DNA of 64,000 bases from the NCBI RefSeq assembly GCF_020921035.1, contig NC_063151.1, forward strand, positions 6,510,001-6,574,000. Direction: 5' to 3'. Position numbers and translations under genes: made by a program. Positions 1 through 61,474 of the stretch are shown here, piece by piece; the stretch's first letter is position 1, and each line of letters begins with the position of its first letter. This DNA is from Rhodamnia argentea. Its lineage: Eukaryota > Streptophyta > Magnoliopsida > Myrtales > Myrtaceae. The notes beneath the pieces are model-generated. The model searched no databases and was not told the DNA's origin. It saw nothing but the letters and a program-made list of their open reading frames with translations.

Positions 1-2888
1 TGCTTCTCTGCCAAGGATCAAACATCTCACTTTATACGGAGTGCGGGAATAATTGTCCAAAACGTTCCAAAACCTATTATACAGTATATTTGATTCAAAA
101 TCTTTTAATTGTGCTAATTTAATATTAAATATTTTGATGATTTGTTTATTTTGACAAGTTAGTCACAAATTTATTATTTGGATAATAGGCCGAAGGAACT
201 ATCTTGATAAATCGTCAAAAGGTTTATAACTGAATGGACACAATTAAAAGTCTTAAGTTGAATTGACAAATTATCAAAAGATTTAAAACTCGATTGATAT
301 AATTAAAAAGTTTAAAATTAAATTAATCGTCGTATAATAAATTTATAAATTTTTAGACAATTTTCTCCCACCTGCCGGATCCGTCTTGTTTGCTGATACA
401 TTCGGCTTAGAAAACCGCACTAAATTTGGGGTTGGTCTTAAAGCATTAATCAATCGTTGCTTGAACCTTGATACGCACAGAAAAAAAAATAATAAAAAAT
501 AAAAAGGAGAACATTGAACAGGATAATCGTCTGGCTGGCAATTCCGCCTTGCTTGAACATCTATCAGCTTTGGGACATCTGTAAAGCCATCAACTTCATC
601 TTTCCTTTGCCGACAGGCGAGACAGGTAGCGATTGGACAGGGGAGGCCCACGCCGCCTGAACCGCGACTATAGCCAACCACGTCCAACGTTACATAAAAG
701 CGAACGAGGACAAAGAAATTCAGCCAAAAAATGCACAAAATCTACCGACATAGAAAGCGAAAATTATGTCGACACAAAAAAAAAAAAAAAGCGAAAGATT
801 AATTGCTTATCCTCATCTAAATCCTTTTGAGAAAATCTATTATATCTCTACTAATTCAATCATAATTTTTTTTAATTTTATCAATTTAATCTTGATAATT
901 TATCAATATAATTATTTCGATCAATTGATGTGGACGTTATTTCTTTTATGTGACTCAAGTGACATTAACATGAGTAATTTTTTTATCGTGACGTGGATAC
1001 ACGAGTGATGTTAACACTCTGTGCCCATCATTAATCACGCAGCGACGTGGCAACTCGTAAGTTGTCGACAAGGCATTCATGTCATTGTCTTATCGGGATC
1101 CGAGGGCCATCGTACGTGTACATCCATCCACACATGGCGTCTCAAATGAACCGAAGCCCGGATAGCTTCGATCCTTCTTGAATTGACATTATTCCGAGAG
1201 GGGATTAGACTAGTCAAGCAGATGATAAGATCATGTCGATAATGACGCCGACAAACGAAGCGCTCCTCTTGATTTGGACAAAGGAAAATACGCGATGACC
1301 GTGACTAATACGACATAGGCATGCATCAATAATGGACAACTTTTAGCGAGAGAGAGAGAGAGAGATTGTAAAGATTACTAGTGTATGCTTTTTCAGTGGG
1401 GAACATGGAGCTTCAAGTTGAAGAGAACGAGTCAAGGAGTTTGCGGGGAAAAAAAAAAATCTTAATTTTAGTGAAGGATATGTTTGTTTTTACATGAAAA
1501 TTCCACAGAACTTGCAAACTGTAACCAAACAAAAGTCAAAACAAAAAAATAATAAGGTCAACGAGTAAATTTTTTTTCTATCATCAGAATTTAATAGATT
1601 ATGCAATTAGGTTTTCAAACTTCAATTCCAATCGCCCAATGCATCGAGTTCTCGATTCGTTTTGCAATTTGATGCACTATTCAAAACTCCGTATGTTGAC
1701 GGGAGAGAGACTCACGCGACGACTAGAAAATGTGTGGCCTGCCCGTCACATCAAAAGCCCGTCCCAAAAGTATGCTTTCTAAAAAAATCGCAATGCGCTT
1801 AGGTATTAATTGAAAATGAAGATTCAATAGTTTGATTATAAAACCATGAAATGGTATTATAACTGAGATCGGTCCTAACCCGCACCAGCCTCTTCGGTCC
1901 ATCCCTGCATATGCTATGATGGGTTTATACTACTGATAGTTGGGACATAAGCTATGAATTTAAGCATCACTTTTTGACATAATTTAAGGCAGGTCCATTT
2001 TATTTATTTATATGCTAAGTTGGGGGGGGTGGGGAGGAGGAGGGTTGGTGTTACTTTAAAGCAAATTTTAAAGGGCGGCCCCTATAAGATGCGCTGGCAG
2101 TCTTTTTAGCACACCCTTAAAAGCGATAACTATTCATAAATGAATTGTTGTAGAACTAAGGGCCATTAATAATAAAACTTGATTATACAACAATTAAACA
2201 AAATTAAACATGATTATGGTATCTACTCTTTCAAAAATTTGTGGTTATTGATATATCGTTATTCTCACGATCACCCAAAAACCGTTATGCTAGCAAAGTT
2301 TATAAAACAACTAGACATGAAACCAAAAAAAAAACACATGGTAAATTTATCATTTCTCTATCTGTCAGCTGATAATCAAGTTAGGTAAGTGCTAAAATGG
2401 GAAGTGATTTTTTTTATTATTAATGCATGAGAAGTTAAAATCACGTATAAGAATAGCCTAAGTCAAATGAAAGATGTACTTTTGTCAATTGAATAGGTGA
2501 ATAAAACTTAGCATAAACTTCAACAAAAAACGTTTACTTACTTCTTGTTCGGCCAAAAGTGAACTTCCTGCGATTTTACCCATGATAAATTACCATACGC
2601 AGTCTCATGCACAGTTGGTGCATTTTGTTGTAAGACCGCTCATGGAGAACACTTTTTTCCACCGTTCGTTAGATATTATCATATTCCCAATACTTATCGA
2701 TCTCTTTCTTGAAAGGACTTTACCGGCATATCAATCTTCTTTAGTGATCGTGAAAATAACAATACATTATGAACCGTAAATTCTTAAAAGAGTGGATCCC
2801 AAAATATTTTATTTTTTATTTTTTGTGGCAAAAAATAAGCTATCACATAATCAATAAATATAAAAATTAGAAAAAAGAATAAAACGAT

Positions 2889-2892
<4 letters not shown>
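1..2892. other. AT-rich intergenic DNA, no gene seen
   Basis: The open frames here are short and resemble no family I know. The stretch is AT-rich with long A and T runs. The segment at about 180-360 contains several loosely repeated phrases of the kind seen in old non-autonomous repeats. A short GA run lies near 1349-1365. Confidence 0.6.

Positions 2893-2919
<27 letters not shown>
2893..2919. repeat. (AG)n microsatellite
   Basis: An uninterrupted AG dinucleotide run of about 27 bp lies about 160 bp downstream of the stop codon of the phytocyanin gene, so it may be in or near its 3' flank. Confidence 0.9.
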
Positions 2920-3081
2920 ATACAAGCTGCCGTGCATTTTCCTTTATTTCCTATTTACATGTACATCCATCTAAATGGATCCACCTATGGAAAAATTTTA
3001 TAAACACGATCAAATTCCATCCCGGAAGATGTATATCTATATATTCAAAATACTGCACCGTACTTCGTCCCAGAATCTCCA

Positions 3082-4337
3082 TTAAGTTTGCCCCAAGACC
3101 ATCATCAAGAATGCCGATGCCCACATACTAAGTCTAAGAGGATCCACCACTTGGGCGGCTGACTGGCCCGGCGGAGGCGAGGTCGAGTTCGCTGGGACAC
3201 CGCTTGGCGTCGCTGCTGGTGGAGACGACTGGGCTGACCCACCACCCGGAGCTGGTGAGGTGGTGGATGACGCCGGCGGCGACGCTCCCGACGGCCCGGG
3301 CGCGGTCGGACCTGATGCTGGAGCTGTTGCTGTTGGAGCAGATGACGGCGACGCAGACGACGGTCCCGTCGCCGGCGCATGTGTTGGAGTTGTAGCTGGC
3401 GATGTGGACGGGGACGGAGATGTCGCCGGAGTACTTGACCCTGGTGCCGCGGTCGGAGACGGCGAGAGAGACGACGGTCCCATTGCCGGCGCATGTGCTG
3501 GAGTTGTAGCTGGCGATGTCGACGGGGACGGAGACGTCGCCGGAGTACTCGACCCTGGCGCCGCGGTCGGAGACGGCGAGAGAGACGATGGTCCCATTGC
3601 CGGCGCATGTGCTGGAGTTGTAGCTGGCGATGTCGACGGGGACGGAGACGTCGCCGGAGTACTCGACCCTGGCGGTCCCGAACCCGGAGCCTTCCCCGGG
3701 GCCATCGCAGGAGTACTCGATCCTGGCGGTCCCGAACCCGGAGCCTTCCCCGGGGCCATCGCCGGAGTACTCGACCCTGGCGGTCCCGAACCCGGGGCCT
3801 TCCCCGGGGGCAGAGGGAGAGGGCGAGGCTTGAAGGCGAGGACGACGACGATCAGCTTCTGGCCTTTCCGACAGTTGCCATCTCGGCCGCTGATGAAGTA
3901 GAAAGGGCCGAACCGGTCGAACTGGAAGACGGTGTCGCCGTCGTCCCATTTCTTGATGGGGTCGTGGGCGTCGCACTGGTCGTAGCCGTCTTTGTTCACC
4001 AGCAGCACCGAGTCCTTTCCTTTCTTGTATTTGAAAACTGAGGCAGACAGAAATTAAGAAACAGGAAAAGAACGTCAAACATAAGACGCGATCCACCTGC
4101 TTCCGTCGAAACTAATCGAAGCCGAAATACTGGGGACTTACGGAGAGTGTCGGTGATCAAGAACCGGTTCCGACCAGCCCAGTGGTTGTAATCCTCGGCG
4201 GGATGAACCACCCAGCCATCTCTGCCTCCGACGTAGAACTGGCGAGCTCGGACTTGAACCAGAGACGACAGAGAACAGATGACGAAGATGCAGACGGCGG
4301 AGAAAGAGGGGAGAGATTCGCGAACGGGAAGATTCAT
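3082..4337 (-). CDS. Early nodulin-like protein (phytocyanin family)
   Basis: Two exons on the minus strand, 4337-4142 and 4037-3082, joined by a GT-AG intron in phase 1, give 383 aa. Residues 1-31 form a signal peptide. About 33-135 are a plastocyanin-like domain, with the FYVGG start, the NHW-GRNRF segment, and the FYFISGRDGNC segment with its disulfide cysteine. Where copper-binding phytocyanins have Cys and His in this last segment there are Ser and Asn, so copper binding is unlikely, as is usual for early nodulin-like proteins. A long Pro/Ser/Thr/Ala-rich stretch follows, typical of arabinogalactan-type glycosylation, and then a hydrophobic C-terminal tail expected to be replaced by a GPI anchor. 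The predicted place of action is the outer face of the plasma membrane. The Pro-rich part is built from tandem repeats, making the protein longer than most relatives. It resembles Arabidopsis ENODL1/ENODL2. Confidence 0.9.
3431..3820 (-). repeat. Coding tandem repeats in the Pro-rich domain
   Basis: Two in-frame arrays lie side by side in the early nodulin-like gene. One has a 114-bp period (38 aa), with equivalent points at 3431, 3545 and 3659. The other has a 54-bp period (18 aa), with equivalent points at 3659, 3713 and 3767. Both periods are multiples of three, so copy-number change would keep the frame. Copies are nearly identical, which suggests recent expansion. Confidence 0.9.
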
Positions 4338-4410
4338 GGAGATGGGTGGTAAGAACTAAGAAGAGAACTATGCAATCGAGCTCGAAAAACTGGTGAGAAC
4401 CGGGCGAGGA

Positions 4411-4418
4411 CTTTTATG
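4411..4418 (-). promoter_or_regulatory. Possible TATA box of the early nodulin-like gene
   Basis: The minus strand reads CATAAAAG about 75 bp before the start codon, a spacing that would allow a short 5' leader. This is sequence resemblance only. Confidence 0.3.
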
Positions 4419-4587
4419 ATGCTTGGAGAGATATTACCGACCTTTGATGTGTATACTCGTGTAGCCATTAACGCCGTCGTTTGATGTCCTCTGCCTCAAT
4501 TGACAATACCCACGTGGCAGAATTAACTGAAGTTCGAAGGAGACGAAAGAAAATAATTTAAAGCGGGCTGCACTTTTGCAATCATAA

Positions 4588-5325
4588 GGATGGGCAAATC
4601 GGACCGTCCGAATCAGAACCGGTAGTCTAGTTTCCGATTCTAAAATGCAGCAATCCGATTCGCGGTTCTTAAATTTGAAGTTGATAACCGGACAGTCCAA
4701 TTCTCGATTTCAAGGGACATAAAATCGGATCGGATTGGTTGATTTTTTTTATTTAAAAGTAACCCTAAAAAGATTTATATTTCCCTACAGTAATCAAACG
4801 GTTTTCTGCAGCAACTGATTCCCTGGGAAAATCCAAAACCCTGCCTCCCTGCATTAGTTTACACTGATTAGAGCTTGGAAATAGGAGGAGCCATGTGCTC
4901 ACATCTGAGCACAACACATGGCACTTTCCTTCCAAAACACCAAGCTCAAGCAGAAGCAGAGCAACAGTGACAAGAAAACAGCCGAGGTCATTACATCAAG
5001 TGCTCGTCCTGCCACTTTCTCTGCACCTGAAAAGATCCTCATATCAAAACCAATACCTGAAGCTTCACCATGCACGAGAAAGGAGAGTCACATGAGACCC
5101 GTTTGACTTTCAGGCTTTTCAAACACTTCGTGAGAAATTTGTCATCTTAGTGGTTTTTTTTAAACCCCCTAAGAACGGGACAGGACCGATGGTCTGATCC
5201 GATTCCCGATTCCGAAAAATGGCAAGTCCAATTCCCTATTCCGAAAAATGATAATCGGAACCACCGGTCCGGTTTCCGATTCTTAAGAAGAACTGGATCG
5301 GATCGAGAACTAGTCACTCCTAGCT
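4588..5325. mobile_element. Possible hAT-like non-autonomous element
   Basis: The left end (about 4588-4740) and right end (about 5160-5325) both carry runs of the CGGACC / TCCGATTC / AACCGG type in opposite orientation, beginning GGATGGGCAAATCGG on one side and ending GTCACTCCTA on the other. Such GGGTG-start, subterminally repetitive ends are common in plant hAT elements. I could not find a clean 8-bp target duplication. An internal open frame (4918-5106) has gene-like base use but no family I recognise. No transposase is present. Confidence 0.3.
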
Positions 5326-5326
5326 C

Positions 5327-6713
5327 AGACACTCTCATTTTTTGTGTTTTGACTATTTTATCATTTACATAGTCCCACACTTCTAATACAATTTTATATG
5401 GTCACTATTTTATTATTTGATCAAATCATTTTATTTTGTTTCTTTTTTTTTTTATGGGACCACTTTTCTTCTTCTTTCTTTTTTTTCACTCTTCCCACTC
5501 GCCTGTCTGTTCTCTCGGCAAGCATGCCATGCCATTCTCTTCTTTCAACGCCTCCTACTCCTCCTTCCACACACCCCGTCGTCCTCAATTTATCAGCGGA
5601 GGCTTCAAGCGGCGACACACGTGTTGAAAAAGCTCCCAACAAAGCCTGCAAGAATTTACTTATTTTAAGGAAGTCACACAACCGGATTCATGGATAGTGC
5701 GCGAGAAGACGATTCCAATAATTTTATCAAACATGGAATACGATGAGAGAGATCAGGCAGAGCAATCATCAATGTACCTTTCTCCTTTGCATATGGCACC
5801 CTGATTTTGTTTCCCTCAAGCATTCTGGAGACCTTTTGCCAGACTCAGAAGTCCTGAAGAATCTGTGCTCGGACGTCCCTTATGCCTCGGAAGGAAATCT
5901 TTTTGCCCGGAAGGGTCCTCTCTTTAACGCCTAAATCTTTGTTTCTCGCGGTCATTTCTACCTTAGAACTCGAACGTCCAATGCCGCCCTCGTCCTGCGA
6001 ACTTCCGCAAGGATCATCGGCGCTAATCTTCTGTCCCCCACCCGTCTCGCCTCGTTAGCTGTTTCTTGCTTCGAACCACCTCGCGGACATTGTGGAATGA
6101 TCGATTTACAAGTGATCTCCACCGCTGAACAGAGGCCGTTACTTGTAGCGGACATATCACCTGATTTCACACAATCTTTCCCTTTTTTTTATTTGAGGAC
6201 TGGCTTTGCATCATGATATACGGCGGTTTCACTTGAATTTACCTTTAAACGGTCGACCTTTTCACCCTTTAAACTGCGACCAATCTCCGAAGCTCTCGAA
6301 ATATATCAACTCCACTTCATCGTCATCCAAAAATCTCGCACTAGCAAGAGGATTCAAATAGATGGTCACAGAAGTCGAGCCCTCGTATTTCATCAAACAC
6401 GTTCTGGTCGTGGGCTTCCATTGTTCATTGGGAAATCCGATACATCCGAGGATCGGTGAAGGAAATGGGGACGGGTGCGGGGAATGCGAAGGAGTTTTCT
6501 CGATCTCGGTGGAGGAAAATGGAGAAAACTAATGGGAGGTGCGGAATGGAAGAAGAAGAAGAAGAGGAAGAAAAGTGGTCCCACAAGAAAAAAAAATAAA
6601 AATAAAAAGAGGTGACCAAATAATTAAAAAAAGGAGCCATATAAAGTTGTAAAGTGATGGCCTATACAAGGAAGATGATTGTCAAAACACACACAAAAAA
6701 AAAAAAGATGTCT
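5327..6713. mobile_element. DNA element with ~170-bp terminal inverted repeats (Mutator-like candidate)
   Basis: The arm at about 5327-5495 matches the reverse complement of about 6540-6713. The match starts at GACA, goes through TGTGTTTTGAC, TTTATATGG and the ATTATTTG segment, and reaches a shared GGGACCACTTTTCTTC block. Divergence is clear, so the element is not new. The interior (about 5500-6540) is less AT-rich and has no transposase frame, so it is non-autonomous; its origin is not recognised. Long inverted repeats suggest a Mutator-like element, but no 9-bp target duplication was seen, so the class is an inference. Confidence 0.6.
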
Positions 6714-9150
6714 AAGTCATAAGGAGAGTGGAAAAAATGCCGTCCTTTAAAATTATAGAGAATTTACTTATTTATAGGAAAAGTCATTCTTCAGTTTTCA
6801 TGCTATAATTAACTGAATTTGTTGAATTAGACTTAGGAGGAAGCAATCGTTAAAAAGATCGAATAAATGCGAGGGTGCGAAATCATGTACATCTAAACAG
6901 CTCGGAAAGCAATAGGAAATCGGATTGTTCCCCCGGCATTTATGATACCCGTGGATACCGGATGGTAAAATTGCTCGACAAAAGAAGCGAAGAGAAAAAA
7001 AAAAAAAAGACCGGACACGTCCCGATTTGAGGGCTGACCATGGTGTCGGTAATTATCATAAATGCTAAACTTTGAGCGAATCTTCCTCATTCGGCGTATT
7101 GAAATTCATTTCCTGAAATGTGATCAAAAGAAAAAAAAGAAATTCATTTCCTGAAAAAATCAGAATCAACCATTCGGATAAAAACGAAAACCCATTCAAA
7201 ATACGTTTATTTTTCTCCAATTTCTTATAGGCTTGTACAGTGTGTTAGCCTGCTTTTGGGCCGGTTAGCAGAAAACCAAAGGGTCCTGTCATCTTGAAGA
7301 AGAAGAAGAAGAAGAAGAGAAACACTTCCGACAAAGGAGACTAGGCATTGCACGTCCTCGGACAAAACTTGGTCCCTCTTGCATGCAATTACGAGCGCGT
7401 GCCTCTAAATTCATTAAAACATACGTGCCAAGAAAAACAAAAATGGAGCAGTTTTTCCACTTTTTTTTTTTTTTTGGCCCTTGTTTCACTCTGGATTGAG
7501 CATCATCACGCGCACTATCTTCGTGGGAAAAGCATGTAGGGGAGTTCATGCAATGATATTGAACCCCGCAAGCCTCGCATCAACGCCAGACTGGCTCATG
7601 ACGTCATTCATCCGTGAGGCACCGCGTTCTAAAATCTCGTGTCGGATTTGCAAGGATCTATCAAGTGAACAGCTCCCGATCGCCGCCTTATGTGGCCATT
7701 CAAAGAGCTCTTTTCGAAGACTGGCCTACTTGAGACGGGTTGAGACTGTATTTATAAAACGGTATCGCTTCAATAATTGTGTGGTTCTTGGACCGGTTTC
7801 AAACGATGATAGCTTGGGAACTATTTTACAGGGGGCTTAGCCCACTTTCAAGCACGTAGAATGCCATTTTCGACAAGAAATTGTCTGATATTCATGTAAT
7901 CCGGCTAGTTGCGTGTGAAAAGACAACCGTTGATTTCCTTTTACTTTGGCACCACGTGTCAATGTGGCCCGAAAAGCATGGTAAAAGATGGAAATGAACC
8001 TTTGACAATTTCCGCGAGTGTTGGCGAGCCCAAGCCCAGCCCGGTTGACTAGGGGGAACATGGGCCCCGAAATGGAACGGGCTTCTTTTTGTGGCCGACT
8101 GATGGGCCGGGTTTCATGACTCGATTTCACTTTGCAAGATTCGTCCAAGGATAATGGTCGGCCGGTTGAATCTCACAAAACCAAACTTACATACTTAGCT
8201 CCTTTGTTTCACGAAAGATCATTGATTAGAAAAAAAAATTTATTCCTAATTTTAATCTTTACCGTCTCTTAAGAAAATGGGAAATGGGAAATATTCTTAT
8301 TATAAACCCAAAATTTAAGAATGAGTAGTCAATTATAATAGAAACATCTCTTATTGAATCTCAAATAAGGGCTCTAAGTGGACCTTATTTCAAATAAAGG
8401 CCTCAAGTAACTATATCAATTTCAAAGAAGGGTCTGACCTTTCAGATAGTCAAGAGCATTTTAGTCTTTTACTTTTTTAAAATATTTTTTCCTTGTTTTA
8501 TTTCTTTTATTTCTTTATCTATTTTTTCTTTTCTTTTTGGTGGTGGCCGGTCTGCCACCCGGACCGTCCATCGGCAATGCCCGGAGAGGGCTAGGCAAGG
8601 GCCACCTTAGACGGCCACAAACGATCCCTGGGCAAAGGTCGTCTTGCCAACGACCAGAGAAGGACGGCCTCAAAATGCCGCGGAATTTGCTATGAAATTT
8701 GTGTTGAATAATCATGTCCATGTTATTTAGGCTCTTTCTGAATCAAATCAAAATCATGACGCTCTCAATATAGTAAATTACGATATTATAGGATGATTAC
8801 CAACGAGGACATTCTCAAAGTTATGAAGTGCCATAGGATTCATCTTGCGAGTTTAAAGATATTTCAAACCATCCAAATTGGCTTTTGTGTTAATTTTAAC
8901 AACAGGAGAACTTCACGTATTAGAATCTTTCTTAGGCTGGTAAATTGCTTCTAGCCACGGTCATCAAAATGAATGGTGTGCCTTCGAAGCAGGAACATCT
9001 CTTCAGACAAAGTAATCCGCCTCTGAAGTAGTAATTTCTCTTGTAATCAGCAAATCGACTGGTAGTTAATCCTCGTCCATCTTAATTGTACTCACTCTTG
9101 GCCAAACGCTATCGAAATATAATCATCATAATGAACCTCATGGCGTCGTA
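6714..9150. other. Intergenic DNA, no gene seen
   Basis: No frame here looks like a gene. A (GAA)n run lies at 7295-7319. A short direct duplication of an AAATTCATTTCCTGAAA phrase lies near 7104 and 7139. The segment about 8370-8690 (a 'rest of frame' AT part followed by a GC-rich GGCCGG part) resembles the GC-rich cores of the dispersed repeats at 31.4 and 57.8 kb and may be a repeat fragment. Confidence 0.5.
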
Positions 9151-9158
9151 AATGCAAA

Positions 9159-10248
9159 TTTAATAGGTGTCTAATGGGTAGGTCGGATCGGGTTTGGATT
9201 GGGTCAAATATGGTCCGATTCATATTTTGACCCATTTAACTCACTTTAACCCATATTCATGTAATGAAAATTCAATGGCTCATAACCAACCAGACCCGCA
9301 TCCGACATGTATCCGATCTAACTCATATTAATACCTCCCGCTCGCCCGCCGCTGCCCACCCGCCGTCGGCGCCGCCCTCCCACCACTGCCATCGAATTAA
9401 TATCTCAACAAGAAATTCAACGATGAAGATACGGTCCGACGTGTGCGAGAGAGCCCAGGCGACAGTGATCTGCTGTGCCAACGAGGCCGCACTCTGCGCC
9501 AAGTGCGACGTTGAAGTCCACGCCGCGAACAAGCTCGCGAGCAAGCAACGGAGGCTCCTCCTTCAGTCCCTCTCCTCGAAGCTCCCTGTTTAGGACATTT
9601 TCCAAGTGAGTCGATGGCTTCGATTCGATTTCTCCGTTTCTCTGTTAACTTCTTTTCTTTTACTTTTTCATGTGGTTCACGTTGGGGCATGCACGAGATT
9701 GAGCGACGCGACGTCGTTCTGGATTCTAGATTTATGCCTTCAACGCGTCGCTTCTTCTTCTCTCTGAAGCTATGAGAGGGACTGTACTTGGTGAATCGCG
9801 TGAGTCGTTTGGGGGATCTCTGTGACTAGTTGTTATTGAGGAAAGAGGGCTGGCGGCGGGGGCGGTCAGTGGCAGTAGTGGGGTGGCAACGGGGCAAGCG
9901 GAGCGTGGCAGAAGGCCGTGGGCGGCGGCGGTAGTGGCGAGCGGAGGGGGCGGGTGGCGGAGGGTAGTAGGTGGCCGGCAGGGGCGGGCGGCGGTGGTAG
10001 TGAGGGAGTGGCGACAGGATGGGCGGAGGTGGTGGGCGGCGACAAGGGAGCTGCGGGGAGCTTGGAAAGTTATAGCCCACGGGTAAAAAATGGGTTGAAA
10101 ATGGATTTTGTTAAAACTCATATTTGAATAGATTTTATAATCTTATATCCATATTTGACCCATTTTCTAAATCTGGTGAATCCATATATGACCCGAATGT
10201 AAAAAAATGAGTTAAAAAGGTGGGTCAATGACCCATACCGACACCTCT
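9159..10248. mobile_element. hAT-like non-autonomous element carrying a host gene fragment
   Basis: An exact 8-bp direct repeat, AATGCAAA, flanks the segment at 9151-9158 and 10249-10256, which fits the 8-bp target duplication of the hAT superfamily. Just inside, both ends read AGGTGTC followed by an ATGGGT phrase in inverted orientation, and the subterminal DNA is full of GGGTC / GACCC words, also typical of plant hAT ends. The 5' end has a few extra bases outside the inverted repeat. The interior contains a B-box zinc-finger exon fragment (9423-9605) and GC-rich low-complexity DNA (about 9340-9400 and 9850-10070). No transposase frame is present, so it would need one from elsewhere. Confidence 0.7.
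9423..9605 (+). pseudogene. B-box zinc-finger (BBX24/25 type) first-exon fragment
   Basis: The frame from the ATG at 9423 gives 56 residues closely matching the first B-box of the BBX18-25 group, with VICCANEAALCAKCD and EVHAANKLASK intact. It is degenerate. The first zinc-binding Cys (normally in the C-D-V-C motif) is Ser, the second His is Gln, and a TAG at 9591-9593 interrupts the point just before the second B-box. The next codons still spell the end of the normal first exon (D-I-x-Q), followed at 9606 by a GTGAGT donor, as expected at the usual first intron of these genes. It was therefore copied from genomic DNA, not from mRNA. It lies inside the hAT-like element, so capture by that element is the likely origin. 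No second exon was found. Confidence 0.85.
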
Positions 10249-10256
10249 AATGCAAA

Positions 10257-12903
10257 ACAATACTCGTTAATTATATTTTGTGTCCGTAAAATAAGTTTCG
10301 ACTTTAAAAAATTACCAATAAGTGTGTAAGCATATGTAAATAAAAATCATCTCACAAGTTGTGCGTTATTTAGGACCCGAGTAAAGTTCTTAAACTACTT
10401 TGTCTGATCTCCGGAACATTAAATTCAGGGATATTCTTTGGGATGAAGGGAAGAAAAATATTTTTTAGGAGGTGATGGTAGGAAAGGTAAGCTCTACGTC
10501 ATCTTCAAGTGGCTATCATCAGGTGGGATCGTATAGTAGTGTCTTGCATCTAAAGTGAATTATCGGAGCTTCGACTCTTACATTATCAATCTCTGCTTTG
10601 CATAATATCTTGAATTGACTTATCGACGACGTATTTCTAATTCAGGGCACTGTATGAGGTCCTGTTTTGCCGAGAGCACATGGAATGTCGACGAATTGAT
10701 TGTCGATGGGTGGTCGACTAGAAGTCTCCCGTGGCGGACAGGGACTTGAGATGGACCTATCTTTTTCCAAGTAAATGACAACCAAAATGAGAGGAGTCAG
10801 TGGGGAGAGCTGGTCTAGTTGAAGTCATTTCAGACATCCTTCAAGGCTACCATAACGTGGAAGTTGGGAGTAGATTTGTGGACGAATACCAAGAACATGG
10901 CATCATTGTTATGGCTCATGTCAAGGGAAAATTATCTTACCACTTCTAAATTTATTTTATATATATACACCAATTTAGTTATAAACTTTATAATTTTACC
11001 AATTTAGTCATAGATCTTTACGCGAATTTTCAATATAATCATTCCGGCCAGCTTTTGTCAACGTGGAGGTGTGCTACGTAGGACGACCGGTGATGACTAG
11101 ATTGTTATATCAGCGATTTCCGGTAGAAATTTACCAGAATGATTCTACTGGAGTTTCGCGCAAAGATTTAGAATTAACTTTGCAAAATTGTAAATTTCGG
11201 GACTGAATTGGCATCCGTTCAATACAATAGGTTTAAGATTGACCATGTAATTTTTTCTCCCAAATCACCATTCCTTGCTCCAATCTTTTATAGGAGATAA
11301 ATCCCACAAAAAATCCTAAACTTTCTTTCGTGATACATAAATTATCTATACGTTACGTCGGATTTTTTTAACGGTCGATAGGGATGGAATAATGACAGAA
11401 TCTTTTTCAAAACTACTATTTAGGGCATCAGCGATATGGAAAACGAGTTTGGTCTATTAGGGCACGCATGATAATACTTATGGAGTAGAATTTCTGCACC
11501 AGAAATATTTCTCAAGCGAAAAATCCGTTTGGTTATGCAACTTCATTTTTCTATTTCTAAAGCATTTTTCTGCTCCGGAAATAGTTTTGAAGCCATTTGA
11601 AAAAGTAAAAAAAAAAATTACTTCTCTCCAAAAAATAAAAAAGTCAATTTCTCGCTAAGAAAAGAAGTAGAAAAATCAACTTTTGGTCGGAAGTTGATTT
11701 TTAAAGCAGAAGTGTTACCATGCGTGTCCTAGTATCCACGCTGACGAAAAGTTTGAAACATATCGTGGGATTTTTTCCTGATATTAATTAATAAGTGAGT
11801 GAGGAATTGCTCTTAATTCACAAGGGGGCAAGTTTTATTTTTGTCTTTTTAAGGTTCTTTGGGCCAGGGCAAGGGGAGGACTCCTCCTCCCGGAGGAGTG
11901 ACTGGTATTCAATGTTTCGCCATTTATGTCCGATATGGACAACTCCGACCGCACCTCCTCAATCACAAAGTTCAGCTTGCCCGCCCATCGACTAATCAGT
12001 ATTTAATTTTTAATCTTAAAATTGGCGAGATTTTGTAAAAATAATGTTAATTACTTCAAAAAATTTTAATTTATTAGATTAAAGCGTAATCATTATTGGA
12101 ATATTTCAACACATATTTAGAAAAAAAAAAATTAAGGGATTAGATTTGTTCCCACTTATCACGTCTCTTTGCCTTCCAATCACAACATCGAATCACGTCG
12201 CAATTAAAATTTCGGTCAACCGATTAATATTAATATAGTCTCAGCGGTCAATCCTGTCATGGTCAACACTGGCGATTCGCACACCCCAACTCCAGGCATT
12301 GAATTCAGGGCCGTTCGTCCAAAAGGGCAAAAAAAAAAACTAGGGCTGCGCTAGGAGAACGGCACGGTTACTTCCGACAACTAACGGCGCAATTTGGGAC
12401 AGGCATTTTGCTTTGTGGGTGCAATTGCAAGGTGTAATAACCCCCGTCGTCAAATAATGATGAACGTGTTGAGGCCTTAATTTTTCTTTTCCTTTATTAA
12501 AATAGATGGACCAAAAAAAAAAAAGATAGGCATGTTGACAAAGTCACGGTATCATGTAATGTTTGATTTGTTTTTTGAGCAAATAGAATGATTACGTTAC
12601 TGTATTGAACAAATTGAAAGTTTAAAGGTGAGATTACACTTTGAGTTAAAATTTAGAATTATTTGTACAAATTTTTTTTTTGGCCTTTTTCCAGCGCCCT
12701 CAGTATGACCGGGTCATATTAATTTCTTCTGCTGCCACCTTCTTTAGACTGATTGTCCAGGGGAATACAAATGAAACAGAGAAACGACAAGGGGATCAGT
12801 ACTTGTCGATCCACAACCAGAAGCAGAAAAAGCTGGAGGTGGTGGGTGGGGAACCTTAAGAGAGGATAAGTACGTCCAATTCGCCATCATCGAAAACGAA
12901 ACA
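10257..12903. other. Intergenic DNA upstream of the MATE gene
   Basis: No coding frame is convincing. Apart from the repeat-like segment at about 10960-11270, the stretch is AT-rich and unremarkable. The last few hundred bases must include the promoter of the MATE gene, but I could not place a TATA box with confidence. Confidence 0.5.
10960..11270. repeat. Degenerate member of a dispersed inverted-repeat family
   Basis: Phrases of the type CAATTTAGT-TAAACTTT on the left and GACTGAATTGGCA ... CAATAGGTTTAAGA on the right, around a centre with a 'GTCAACGTGGAGG ... TACGTAGGACGACCGG' style core, match the layout of the elements at 18904-19477 and 31108-31709. The ends are too worn to define a target duplication. 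Confidence 0.4.
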
Positions 12904-28232: not shown

Positions 28233-30306
28233 GTACAATTATCTCTTCGCAAAGATCGCTTGATTCATCCTGTATTTCCATCCTCGTTGTTTTGTTAGGT
28301 TCGAGAAGCGAACAACTCTTCGTTGTACCTCGCTCTGTGTGGAACGTAAACGAACTGTGTGCGCTGTTGCTTGTTGTTACAGACGAGGCACAGGCAGTTG
28401 ACATTACGGTTTAAGTCTTATTCTATCTTTGACATAACTCGCGGACGACTGACTGCAATCTTTTGCCCGCGCAATTTGGTTATTACGTTCATATTGTTGC
28501 AATGATGGGTTTAAGCTGGGATGGAGTCATGGGCAGTCATCTGTAAGTGCTGGTAGTCGTTTATTGATCGAGGGTGGCTTTGAAATGTGATAAGTGTGAC
28601 CTGGGGACGCGTGCTTCCTGATACGAATGGTACGCGCTAGAAAGTTGAGGGTGCCCATCAAGTGTTTGGTTTAATGTCTGATAGAAACTTGGTTACACAG
28701 GCTATCGATGTGATTATAAACAGATAAATTGCGAGGTAATATAGTTCCTCTGCCAACATAATTCTCTAACGAAGTATGACTTTGGTACTAGATCATGTAA
28801 GAATTTCATTTAGGACCCACCCATTTGCCACCTCTACTTGTACCCATTTAGTATAGAGGGTTCGGAGATGGCAGGTAAGGTTCAGACGTTGTCTATATGT
28901 TGGCTGGGAGGTTGATATAACATATTTCTGTTGCTAAAATAAGCCACGTGAGGATGTGTCCTTCGGTCAATGCTAGTCATTGGTAGTGCCGGAGTAAGCC
29001 TTGTGCTGGCCTATTGTGCATGTACTATTTCATGCATTTAGCGTAGCGACCAACACCTATGAAGTTTCGTTAGAGTCCAAGCCGAATAGTCGAAAGAGTA
29101 CTGATCACGAACGTTGATGATTTACTCCAGTGCTTCCCATGGCCAGTGGCATGCAGAAGCTCAGTTATGTGAAACTGTGCATGCCAATTGTTCTTATCAA
29201 TACCTTTTTTATGCCATGTTGTCTCTCTGCTTTATTTTGAGAATAGGCTCTATGATTCTTTAATTCAGAAGGGGTCAAGGTACAAATACAATGCTTCATT
29301 CTTGAAACAATTTATCAAGGCAAATAAGAGCTCCAGTGTAAGATTTGCTGTCACTGTGTTACAAGTTTCTTCAAGATAGTGAAAAGTCTATACTGAAGCA
29401 TTGGCAAAGCATTCACTCATAGAATGCATGAGATGAGACCGAGGCATGGTTGCCGATTCTTCTTTTATTGGCTAGGCTCTAAATGGATATGACAGAGTTT
29501 CCACTTTTCTTTTTGAGGAATATCCAGTAAAAGTCTTCAAAAGGGCTCAACCTCTCTCTAGGACCTGACACCAGGAGCTTCATCAAGAACGGTAAAGTCA
29601 AAATGTACTAATGCAAGTGGCCATTTAGCAGCTGATTCGATAACAGTAGTGGACGACTTCTAGGCGGTCAGAAGGGCCATCACTCTGTCTATATTCTAGT
29701 TTTGTTAGAGATTTCCTACAATTTCCAGCTTCTAGCTCCTATATTTTGCAATCCTGGAGAGTGTGGAGCCTTTTGTGGTATTATCAGAGTGACCTGATGT
29801 TAATTGGGGCGAAATCTAAAATAGGCAGGCTGAAGCAATTTGAAGATTGAACATACTATGTAATTCTTCCTCAGATTAATGCTATTTATTGGAGATGTTT
29901 TACTCGTACCAACCATGAGTGGTAATTTGGTATCAGTTGTAGACACAATAACATTTAAGTGCCCTAATTGGATAACATTTACTTCATTGAACTGCTTTCT
30001 GCTTGTGAGCCATGTTTAAATGATTATGGTACTACTTTGGTATCGCATATTCAAGTTGTGGCATGTTCATATCAATCCGATAATTCTAGAACCCTAGAAA
30101 GGGTTGAAGCAGTCCTTTCATCTCAAATTTCTCAATTGTTTCGTGTAATTATTGAAGTTATGTTGGAAAAGCTATGATTTGCAGACTCCATCTGCATATA
30201 ATTTGATACTTAGGTTCGATTTCCTTGCAGTGGATTATCACTTGAAAGGCTAATTCACGGTGCCTTTGAGGTGAAATAATTTGTTAATTTTCTTTGTGGT
30301 GCATAG
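28233..30306 (+). other. Probable 5' UTR intron of the mL59-like gene
   Basis: GC-richer DNA ending CACTCAG is followed by GTACAA at 28233. An acceptor GTGCATAG ends at 30306, 19 bp before the start codon of the small basic protein gene. The 2-kb interval has no coding frame of note. This is inferred from splice-site resemblance and from the position of the coding frame; a promoter just upstream of 30326 is the alternative. Confidence 0.45.
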
Positions 30307-59087: not shown

Positions 59088-61474
59088 CTACACATCTTCA
59101 CCGTCACTAACATTGGGACATGTGTCAATGTAGAACTCGGAGCAGAAGTCAGATTCATCCACAATACATCCCCTGTTTTACATGGATAGGTCTTGTTCTT
59201 AAGAATGAAGAGCAAAAAATATATACAGAAACAAAGACTTGATGCCAAACAAAGGGATGGTACCTCTCAAGCACGAACTTTCCTTCTTTGTACTTTTGGC
59301 TATTCTCAGTTGCTGCCTCCTGCAAAGAAATGAAATGCCCGGGAAAGCAGATGACCATATAAATAATAACTCTGCCAAAAATGTCTGTTCACTATATTAA
59401 TATTACTATCATTGTATGTGCGGTGCGCCCATACGCATATGTGTGAAGCTATGCCTCTGAAATGCAGTAAGAGATTACACAATCTTAGCTGTACCACTGG
59501 ATATTGTGTCTACTGAAGGTGGGCGGAGAAGAGGACAACATAGTGCTAAGAGCTATCTAGGAGTTTTACCCTGTGCTAGTCCATGCTTGAACCAATGTCA
59601 GATTTCAGGCGATATGCAACCAATTAGTACCAATTTGATGCAATTTCATGGAACTTTATATCTGATATACACCATAGGTACTATCCTCATATTTCATCAG
59701 GAAGGTTCGTCATATGGGTCTTCTTTGCATGACTCCTGACCAACCCATGAGCCTCCTCAGAATTGGTGTGCATGTGTAGAGAGAGAGAGAGAGAGAGAGA
59801 GTATACATATTTCCACCCAACAATTTGGCCACAACAGCAACAGAATATGTCTCCCACAGTGTGCAGTCCTGAAAGCATCAGCCTCTCTTCTAGAGTTCCC
59901 ACTGTGACATTCACCCTACAGCACAAATCAACAGACAAATGGGAAAAATTCACGGCTCATTAGGCAAACATTTTGCAGATGGGAAACAACAAAAGTAATT
60001 GAAATTGCAGCGTCGATAAACACAACCTTCGTGACACTAAAAACTTGGAATGAGGACATCTATTTCCACATTCCCTTCCCCAGAGAAAAAGTGGTCTTCC
60101 TTTTCTCTGGACAAATGAACCTCGGTACTCTTGCATTGACAACCAATGAATACTAAAATTAAGATGTCTTATAAGGTCAGCTAAAAACGAGGACCTATTT
60201 ACAATGGTAGTGAGAACTTAAATGCGACTCTTTTTACACTTTGCATCTTTGGATGAAAACCTTATCATACTTGCGATCATAAGAGACCTAAGAGAAGTCG
60301 CTTTAGAAGTCATTAGGCGATGCAATCTGTGTTGATGAAGAAGGCAATATGCCGTGAGAATCTCCCACATGTAACCTCATTCTTCTCATCCTCGATAAAC
60401 TATGACTTCTACAACTAGATTCTCTTACTAAAATGCTCCAACAAGCATCAGTTGAACCTGTACCATTATCCACTTCCTCTCTCTCGCTACTATACTTAGA
60501 AAACGAGAGGAAGGGAAAAAAAATGAAATAGTGTAAAGACCTAAGACCACATAATGTGTACTGTCATTTGCCTAGATCTCGATTCTCAATTCTCAACCCA
60601 TCTAGGAAGACATCCTAATGCAGAAACTCCCGGAAAAAGTTGGTGAGAATAATTAGAGCTATAGACAAAGTAAAAATTTCGTATATAGAAAGAAACAATC
60701 TCCATAGTACTAGTGAAGCTAACAAATGGACATGATATCACCATCACCCTTGCAAAAAGCAGCAAGAAGATTATTCATCGTCCTAATATCATAACACGAA
60801 AGCGGTACAACAAGATCATAGGGGCAGCAATCAGTTGGCATAAATCTTATAGCCAGCATGCAATCACGCAATCTTGGTCCCGAGGGGTTCTGAAAACCAT
60901 GAACACTTCCATCACCATTAGAAAGAAAAATCCCAAACTGCAACTACAGTTGAGAAGAACTTACGCCTTTTTGAAGAGGTACGCTTTTCCTCGGCGACAA
61001 TGAAACGCCTGAACAAATTACAGAAGAAAAATTATATCAGGGTTCAACATCCTTGAGACAGGACCTCGACATAACACGCTGTTCTACTCAAATCAGTACT
61101 TGTAGTAACAACTATCGCAGGTGATAAAGTTCATTGCTTTCCTTTCAGTTCCCACTTTCAAGAAACAATTCAGCAGTAAAGCAATCCGCCCGAAACTAGT
61201 CTCACCAAAAACAAAGCAACAATACATCAGATGAAACACATCCAGTCCAATTTATCAAAACAAAGCACCCTAAGTTCACCCAGCTGAGGCTCGAAAAAAG
61301 AACCGACTTTTATTCAATCAACAACGCACGGAACAAATCCCGCTTCACTGAGCGAGAAATTAGAGAGAGTAGAGTTACCCGAGAGATGAGATCCTCGGCG
61401 AGGGCCAAGTGGGTCTTGCAGTACTTGCACCTGTAAGATCGCCCTTCTAGCTCCACCAAGTATATCCTCCCCAT
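59088..61474 (-). CDS. Yippee-like zinc-binding protein
   Basis: Five minus-strand exons, 61474-61379, 61008-60965, 59915-59807, 59319-59264 and 59172-59088, give 129 aa, the usual length for plant Yippee proteins. The Yippee fold's two Cys pairs are present: C16-x2-C19 in [15 protein letters not shown] and the second pair in the [15 protein letters not shown] segment. [10 protein letters not shown] follows and the acidic tail is [12 protein letters not shown]. The family is found throughout eukaryotes and folds around one zinc ion; its biochemical role is still poorly defined, though relatives act as cereblon-like or ubiquitin-linked factors. This gene neighbours the basic-protein gene in the same orientation, as I recall for Arabidopsis At5g53930/At5g53940. 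The LFKKAVNVTVG segment replaces the commoner LFNSVVNVTFG. Confidence 0.92.
59778..59801. repeat. (GA)n microsatellite next to a Yippee splice donor
   Basis: About 24 bp of GA on the + strand (TC on the transcript strand) begins right after the GTATAC donor of intron 3 of the Yippee gene, inside the intron. Confidence 0.9.

Follow-up and report, generated by a model that had tools for sequence, protein, structure and literature searches.

We consider it highly probable (about 0.85) that the window, by which we mean the whole 64-kb stretch analysed (G000:C2:6510001-6574000, from a 347-Mb assembly of 74 contigs), contains a member of a Pack-hAT family at positions 9161-10249, which bears the beginning of a B-box (BBX) gene copied at the DNA level, captured during repair by template switching and then moved to its present site. 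The parts of the element are listed in Table 1.

Table 1. Positions in the window of the Pack-hAT element, its flanking duplication and its captured segment
Feature	Position	Strand	Remarks
Pack-hAT, a non-autonomous element of hAT type holding captured host DNA	9161..10249	+	1089 bp
Left target-site duplication ATGCAAAT	9152..9159	.	7/8 vs right copy; in relatives the 8-bp duplication abuts terminal TA
Left terminal inverted repeat, damaged, TAATAGGTGTC	9161..9171	+	Family consensus TAGAGGTGTCAA
Left subterminal region common to relatives	9172..9330	+	Left-side genome matches mostly stop near 9341
C-rich arm	9331..9392	+	
14 bp between arm and captured DNA, no match at source locus	9393..9406	+	Alignment to source locus
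Captured B-box gene segment (source C1:590 kb)	9407..9849	+	89% identical
Sub-parts of captured segment	leader 9407-9422; exon 1 9423-9605; intron 1 start 9606-9849	+	
Premature stop TAG in captured frame	9591..9593	+	Codon 57; source gene has Cys
Intron donor GTGAGT, retained	9606..9611	+	
G-rich arm, adjoining captured DNA directly	9850..10060	+	
Right subterminal region common to relatives	10061..10237	+	
Right terminal inverted repeat CCGACACCTCTA	10238..10249	+	Family consensus TTGACACCTCTA
Right target-site duplication ATGCAAAA	10250..10257	.	

The preliminary description of this DNA had placed the element at 9159-10248, between exact 8-bp direct repeats and inverted ends of the AGGTGTC type. 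The element proved real, but its ends were moved to about 9161-10249 because in 18 relatives identical 8-bp flanks directly abut the family ends. The repeat AATGCAAA is indeed exact at 9151-9158 and 10249-10256; the last of its eight matching bases, however, is the A in which the element itself ends, and the true duplication is the 7/8 match given in Table 1. The inverted ends were present as described (AGGTGTC at 9165-9171 and GACACCT at 10240-10246), and ends of the family type recur genome-wide. Because the left end is damaged, the window element is probably no longer mobile.

When the genome was searched with window positions 9100-10300, at least 46 matches were obtained (40 of 354 candidates scored), comprising the element itself, one B-box locus (C1:590365-590811) and 44 matches that covered the left or the right part only. 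Because these 44 match one side of the element and the B-box locus matches the cargo, ends and cargo have separate histories. No second BBX-bearing copy was present among the 46 matches listed. The 20-base left and right ends gave 460 and 401 genome matches, respectively, at ≤2 mismatches, compared with 2 and 0 for reversed-pattern controls, which is more than a chance resemblance. Relatives typically start with TAGAGGTGTCAAATGGGTGG and finish with GACCCATATTGACACCTCTA, with changes in many copies, and the terminal consensus is the same on both sides, with terminal repeats of about 12 bp. Other copies with the same ends and different cargo, which the preliminary description had proposed to look for, were thus found: hundreds of loci share the ends, and the sampled copies differ in interior and in 8-bp duplication.

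Target-site duplications were evaluated in 38 distinct relatives with both ends, after removal of repeat fetches of one element, loci with no acceptable right end and the long elements L062-L064. The flanks were identical at 8 bp in 18 relatives, whereas identical 5-, 6-, 7-, 9- or 10-mers abutting the ends were found in none of the 38. In these 18, the 8 bp directly adjoin ends that resemble TAGAGGTGTCAA and TTGMCACCTCTA and contain 0-4 changes. Flanking 8-mers were alike at ≥7/8 positions in 25/38 relatives but in only 1/114 control 8-mers taken 20, 35 or 50 bp farther out, the pairing of ends having favoured matching 8-mer flanks where more than one end was possible. The 41 perfect left ends in the sample yielded 27 paired elements <2 kb, 3 longer ones and 11 left unpaired; among the 27, the flanks agreed at 8/8 in 14 and at ≥7/8 in 19.

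The captured segment had been described as a B-box exon still followed by its intron donor, and both parts of this description were substantiated. Alignment with a 9.9-kb locus (L009, C1:586000-595900) identified the donor gene, with a match over 448 columns containing 6 gap positions. Beyond exon 1, the cargo extends into the leader (16 bp) and into intron 1 (about 244 bp). Because the intron is retained, the segment must have been copied from DNA and not from spliced RNA. The Pfam zf-B_box domain is clear in exon 1 of the source (E 2e-06) and weak in the decayed copy (E 0.0038, below the cut-off). The source locus holds, in order, exon 1 with its B-box, a further B-box exon, whose match (E 0.0003) stays below the curated cut-off, and then a downstream exon, where the open stretch finishes in EEFFTVPDLG, an ending that we take to be typical of BBX24/25; judged from its sequence, the source gene is apparently complete. 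Relative to the source frame, 3 of the nucleotide differences in the 61 captured codons are synonymous and 11 are non-synonymous (unpolarised, the stop being among the latter), and besides the cysteine replaced by the stop at codon 57, those at codons 5 and 60 are lost. The BBX copy is today most likely a non-coding passenger free of constraint.

Our assignment of the family to the hAT superfamily draws on its ends and duplications. Terminal inverted repeats of hAT elements are short and begin with YARNG, and the consensus TAGAGGTGTCAA has this form at both ends. The rice nDart/Dart system (hAT) is similar in comprising non-autonomous elements with short terminal inverted repeats, and its repeat, presumably TAGAGGTGGCCAA, resembles the family ends here. 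A second family-like left end, TAGAGGTGGCAAATGGGTGG, with 1 mismatch, lies on the minus strand of the window at 28817-28836; we take it to be nearer to the rice nDart end. Helitrons make no duplication and have TC...CTRR ends with a 3′ hairpin, and they were excluded by the target duplications and inverted ends. According to Table 1 of PMC4423477, target duplications measure 8 bp in hAT and 9 bp in Mutator elements, and CACTA elements combine CACT(A/G) ends with a 3-bp duplication. The ends and 8-bp duplications of the family contradict CACTA; at 8 bp the flanks of 18/38 relatives are identical and those of the window element agree at 7/8. The terminal repeats and duplication enclose a host gene fragment with an 89% identical source, the configuration that defines Pack-TYPE elements.

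To find an autonomous partner, we examined ten long loci, each beginning with a perfect left end (L059-L068), and applied Pfam to L060-L063, L065, L066 and L068. Ten long frames from L060, L061, L063, L065, L066 and L068 contained no transposase by Pfam and gave only weak matches, to KIP1 (L068) and to a retroelement (L063, outside the paired element). Two of these loci hold long elements with family ends: L062 (119-4356, 4238 bp, flanks 7/8) and L063 (130-4160, 4031 bp, flanks 3/8), the latter with a stretch like the L029 interior; no Pfam match was found in the 33 frames scanned from the two. In L067, all six frames are open from about 910 to 6110 (about 1700 codons), which most probably reflects a run of N (a gap or withheld stretch) rather than a gene. 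The genome contains at least 150 matches to the hAT dimerisation domain, and none of them lay within 8 kb of a family end when 150 of 1077 candidates were compared with 200 of 861 ends.

To describe the cargo across the family, we grouped the interiors of 37 elements >600 bp, including the window element. Of the 21 groups obtained, the largest had 11 members and the next 3, four were pairs and 15 were single within the sample, so that five groups have interiors common to 2-3 sampled elements. The 11-member group (L031, L034, L039, L040, L043, L048, L049, L053, L058, L071 and L073) shares an interior that is GC-rich in part, and this may represent either an older amplified cargo or the ordinary form of the family. 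Ten interiors were searched in the genome (window, L003, L005, L006, L017, L023, L025, L029, L038 and L045). A central 220-base piece served as the query for L005, L006, L017, L023, L025 and L029, and L005, L006 and L017 were searched again with nearly the whole interior. Low-copy sources elsewhere were found for 7/10 interiors (window, L003, L005, L006, L017, L025 and L038). We took these sources to be non-element DNA because the matches stop at the arms in the nearly whole-interior searches and because they are distant from the family ends that were listed (200 of 861); apart from the B-box gene, they were placed by match coordinates alone. L003 carries a fragment of a trehalose-phosphate synthase/phosphatase gene (Glyco_transf_20, E 5.5e-38; Trehalose_PPase, E 4.6e-08), 91% identical to its source at C4:18845634.

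In five of the seven elements (L005, L006, L017, L025 and L038) the cargo consists of two pieces from different contigs, with edges that are BLAST edges and may be off by a few bases. In L005 a C3 piece (86%) is followed by a C2 piece (85%), the two matches overlapping by 8 bp. In L006, 34 bp separate a C7 piece (87%) from a C3 piece (91%). L017 joins a C1 piece (86%), which also matches C5 at 84%, to a C9 piece (87%) with 2 bp between; L025 joins a C10 piece of only 48 bp (86%) to a C8 piece (93%), again with 2 bp between; and in L038 a C5 piece (86%) and a C6 piece (83%) lie 8 bp apart. The smaller pieces in two-source cargo are short (48-160 bp), and one has two candidate sources. Among the remaining interiors, that of L045 gave an 80% match over 322 bp with short weak ones in addition, while those of L023 and L029 matched several loci at 81-91%, L029 with one further 66-bp match at 86%. 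Because L023 and L029 match several loci, one of which is near a family end and another inside L063, these matches may be other element copies. At G000:C5:30445658-30446330, 461 bp separate a family right end from one of the C5 matches to the L023 interior, which suggests a locally amplified cargo group. L054 contains a stretch that resembles an O-methyltransferase dimerisation domain, with a match (E 4.9e-05) slightly short of the curated cut-off. A control search with one flanking stretch (n=1) gave no source near 90% and only matches at 71-76% to an old dispersed repeat. Window positions 10373-10653 are part of an old dispersed repeat with at least 39 other matches at 71-76% (429 candidates).

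In the window element, the cargo lies between a C-rich and a G-rich arm. We scored as an arm any 60-base window with G+C ≥65% in which C was at least twice G (C-type) or G at least twice C (G-type), and applied this criterion to the seven elements whose cargo edges were set by their sources (window, L003, L005, L006, L017, L038 and L045). L025 was omitted because it was searched with the central piece only and its cargo edges were not set. A C-rich arm within 30 nt to the left of the cargo and a G-rich arm within 30 nt to its right were found in 6/7 elements, the left arm being absent from L045. In the background, 12 and 23 of 5174 windows qualified as C-type and G-type, respectively. The source B-box locus, scored at every base, had 40 of about 9840 windows qualifying as either kind; within L009 3900-5300, the qualifying windows begin at 4475-4478, inside exon 1 and away from the cargo edges.

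Both arms were present in 17/26 elements outside the 11-member group and in 0/11 inside it, although the former figure is biased because 14/38 relatives were fetched by similarity to the window element's own ends. When only perfect-left-end elements >600 bp were counted (n=25), both arms were found in 7/14 versus 0/11 (Fisher P 0.008), and in 5/11 versus 0/11 (P 0.035) after exclusion of the three elements first fetched by similarity. Elements ≤600 bp (L036 and L042) lie outside these arm counts. Pairing between the left and right arms was better than that of 3-mer-shuffled arms in 3/7 elements (L003, L006 and L038) and not clearly above the shuffles in the window element (18/200 shuffles as good), L005, L017 and L045.

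We weighed several other origins for the window element. A B-box gene that decayed in place, with transposon-like ends arising by coincidence or by later nested insertion, would explain a recognisable exon 1 with its intron donor, and a larger decayed BBX gene nearby was the outcome that the preliminary description had named as fatal to its reading. No such gene is present: none of the remaining exons of the source gene was found in the 64-kb window, and outside 9407-9849 the source matches it only trivially (21 bp at 59781-59801, plus one weak B-box-to-B-box protein match within the fragment itself). Of the source gene, the window has no more than the leader, exon 1 and the first part of intron 1, both edges of the fragment join DNA unlike the source gene, and the ends, arms and duplication agree with the family; we give decay in place almost no credence. 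Membership of a different superfamily, for example as a Mutator-like element with short ends, is also very improbable. Pack-MULEs are the best-known gene-capturing elements with terminal inverted repeats in plants, and some have short repeats; Mutator-like elements otherwise have long ones. The repeats here are about 12 bp, and the identical flanks are 8 bp and never the 9 bp given for Mutator in PMC4423477, on which grounds we rejected a Pack-MULE.

Fusion deserves closer consideration. In the published Pack-TYPE model, two elements come to flank a host segment, their inner ends decay, and transposase moves everything between the outer ends. PMC8903248 puts this model forward for the Pack-TYPE elements of every DNA transposon superfamily and cites hAT examples, and the model accounts for internal cargo and shared ends. 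Matches to a 12-mer terminal remnant (≤3 mismatches) were present in the cargo of L005 (two) and L006 (one), but were absent from that of the other five of the seven elements (window, L003, L017, L038 and L045). Within the 9.9 kb around the source B-box gene, no 20-mer family end was found at ≤5 mismatches; the locus contains just three weak end-derived matches of 15-25 bp (E 0.001-0.005). Two pieces from different contigs, ≤34 bp apart, in five of the seven elements with low-copy sources also speak against fusion, which we regard as unlikely. Template switching fits better, because most elements with two-source cargo bring two unlinked sources together with no more than a few bases between them, and because the BBX segment has 14 bp of unmatched DNA at its left junction and a direct right junction, while its source locus is devoid of 20-mer family ends.

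In the template-switching reading, a copy of the element would have captured its cargo while being repaired or replicated. Synthesis would have stopped inside the GC-rich arms or in the interval between them, continued on another locus or several as template and returned to the element at the arm on the other side, and transposase from an unseen hAT element would then have moved the loaded element to its present site. Repair with filler after excision has been described in rice (in the text of PMC4423477), and template switching has been described for animal Pack-TIRs (in the text of PMC8277862). That the arms promote the template switch is a proposal. More tentatively, the arms may be a built-in capture site with a fragile GC-rich centre, at which repair synthesis repeatedly stops and switches template, so that the family keeps loading inserts and acts as an exon-shuffling device; we hold this to be possible but doubtful.

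Gene capture by hAT elements has already been published for maize Ds elements (PMC3260210) and for Pack-hATs of maize and rice (PMC8903248). As described by Du et al. 2011 (PMC3260210), maize Ds2 and Ds-l4 are, like the present family, non-autonomous hAT elements of around 1 kb with short shared ends, 8-bp duplications and variable filler, including intron-containing host gene fragments from other chromosomes. Their ends differ (C/TAGGGATGAAA as against TAGAGGTGTCAA here). Their account of gene fragments in 2 Ds2 and 9 Ds-l4 elements mentions no C-rich and G-rich arms, and neither 'chimeric' nor 'GC content' appears in the main text. The Pack-hATs of maize and rice described by Gisby and Catoni 2022 (PMC8903248) likewise have terminal inverted repeats, 8-nt duplications, internal gene fragments and amplified cargo groups. 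Fusion of neighbouring insertions is invoked in the text of that paper, whereas here the two-contig cargo, lying between GC-rich arms, leads us to template switching. For animal Pack-TIRs, the text of PMC8277862 proposes gap filling and FoSTeST, with template switching, microhomology and de novo insertions at breakpoints, multicopy cases having then transposed; these are animal genomes, and 'gc-rich' is absent from its main text. A limited search of the open literature returned nothing about the present family and no account of C-rich and G-rich arms flanking hAT-family cargo. Pack-hATs as such are known; what appears to be new is the presence of the arms and the filling from two sources.

Two explanations are in print for the pick-up of host genes by cut-and-paste transposons: fusion of neighbouring insertions, and template switching in repair. 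The present family, with its hundreds of ends, its GC-rich arms and its two-contig cargo, offers many junctions for telling these two mechanisms apart. A survey of maize (text of PMC3260210) called gene capture by hAT elements a rare feature; the present family suggests that capture is frequent in the hAT superfamily. If the capture-site reading is true, one hAT family would constitute a standing exon-shuffling device that places inserts, often from two sources, between fixed arms.
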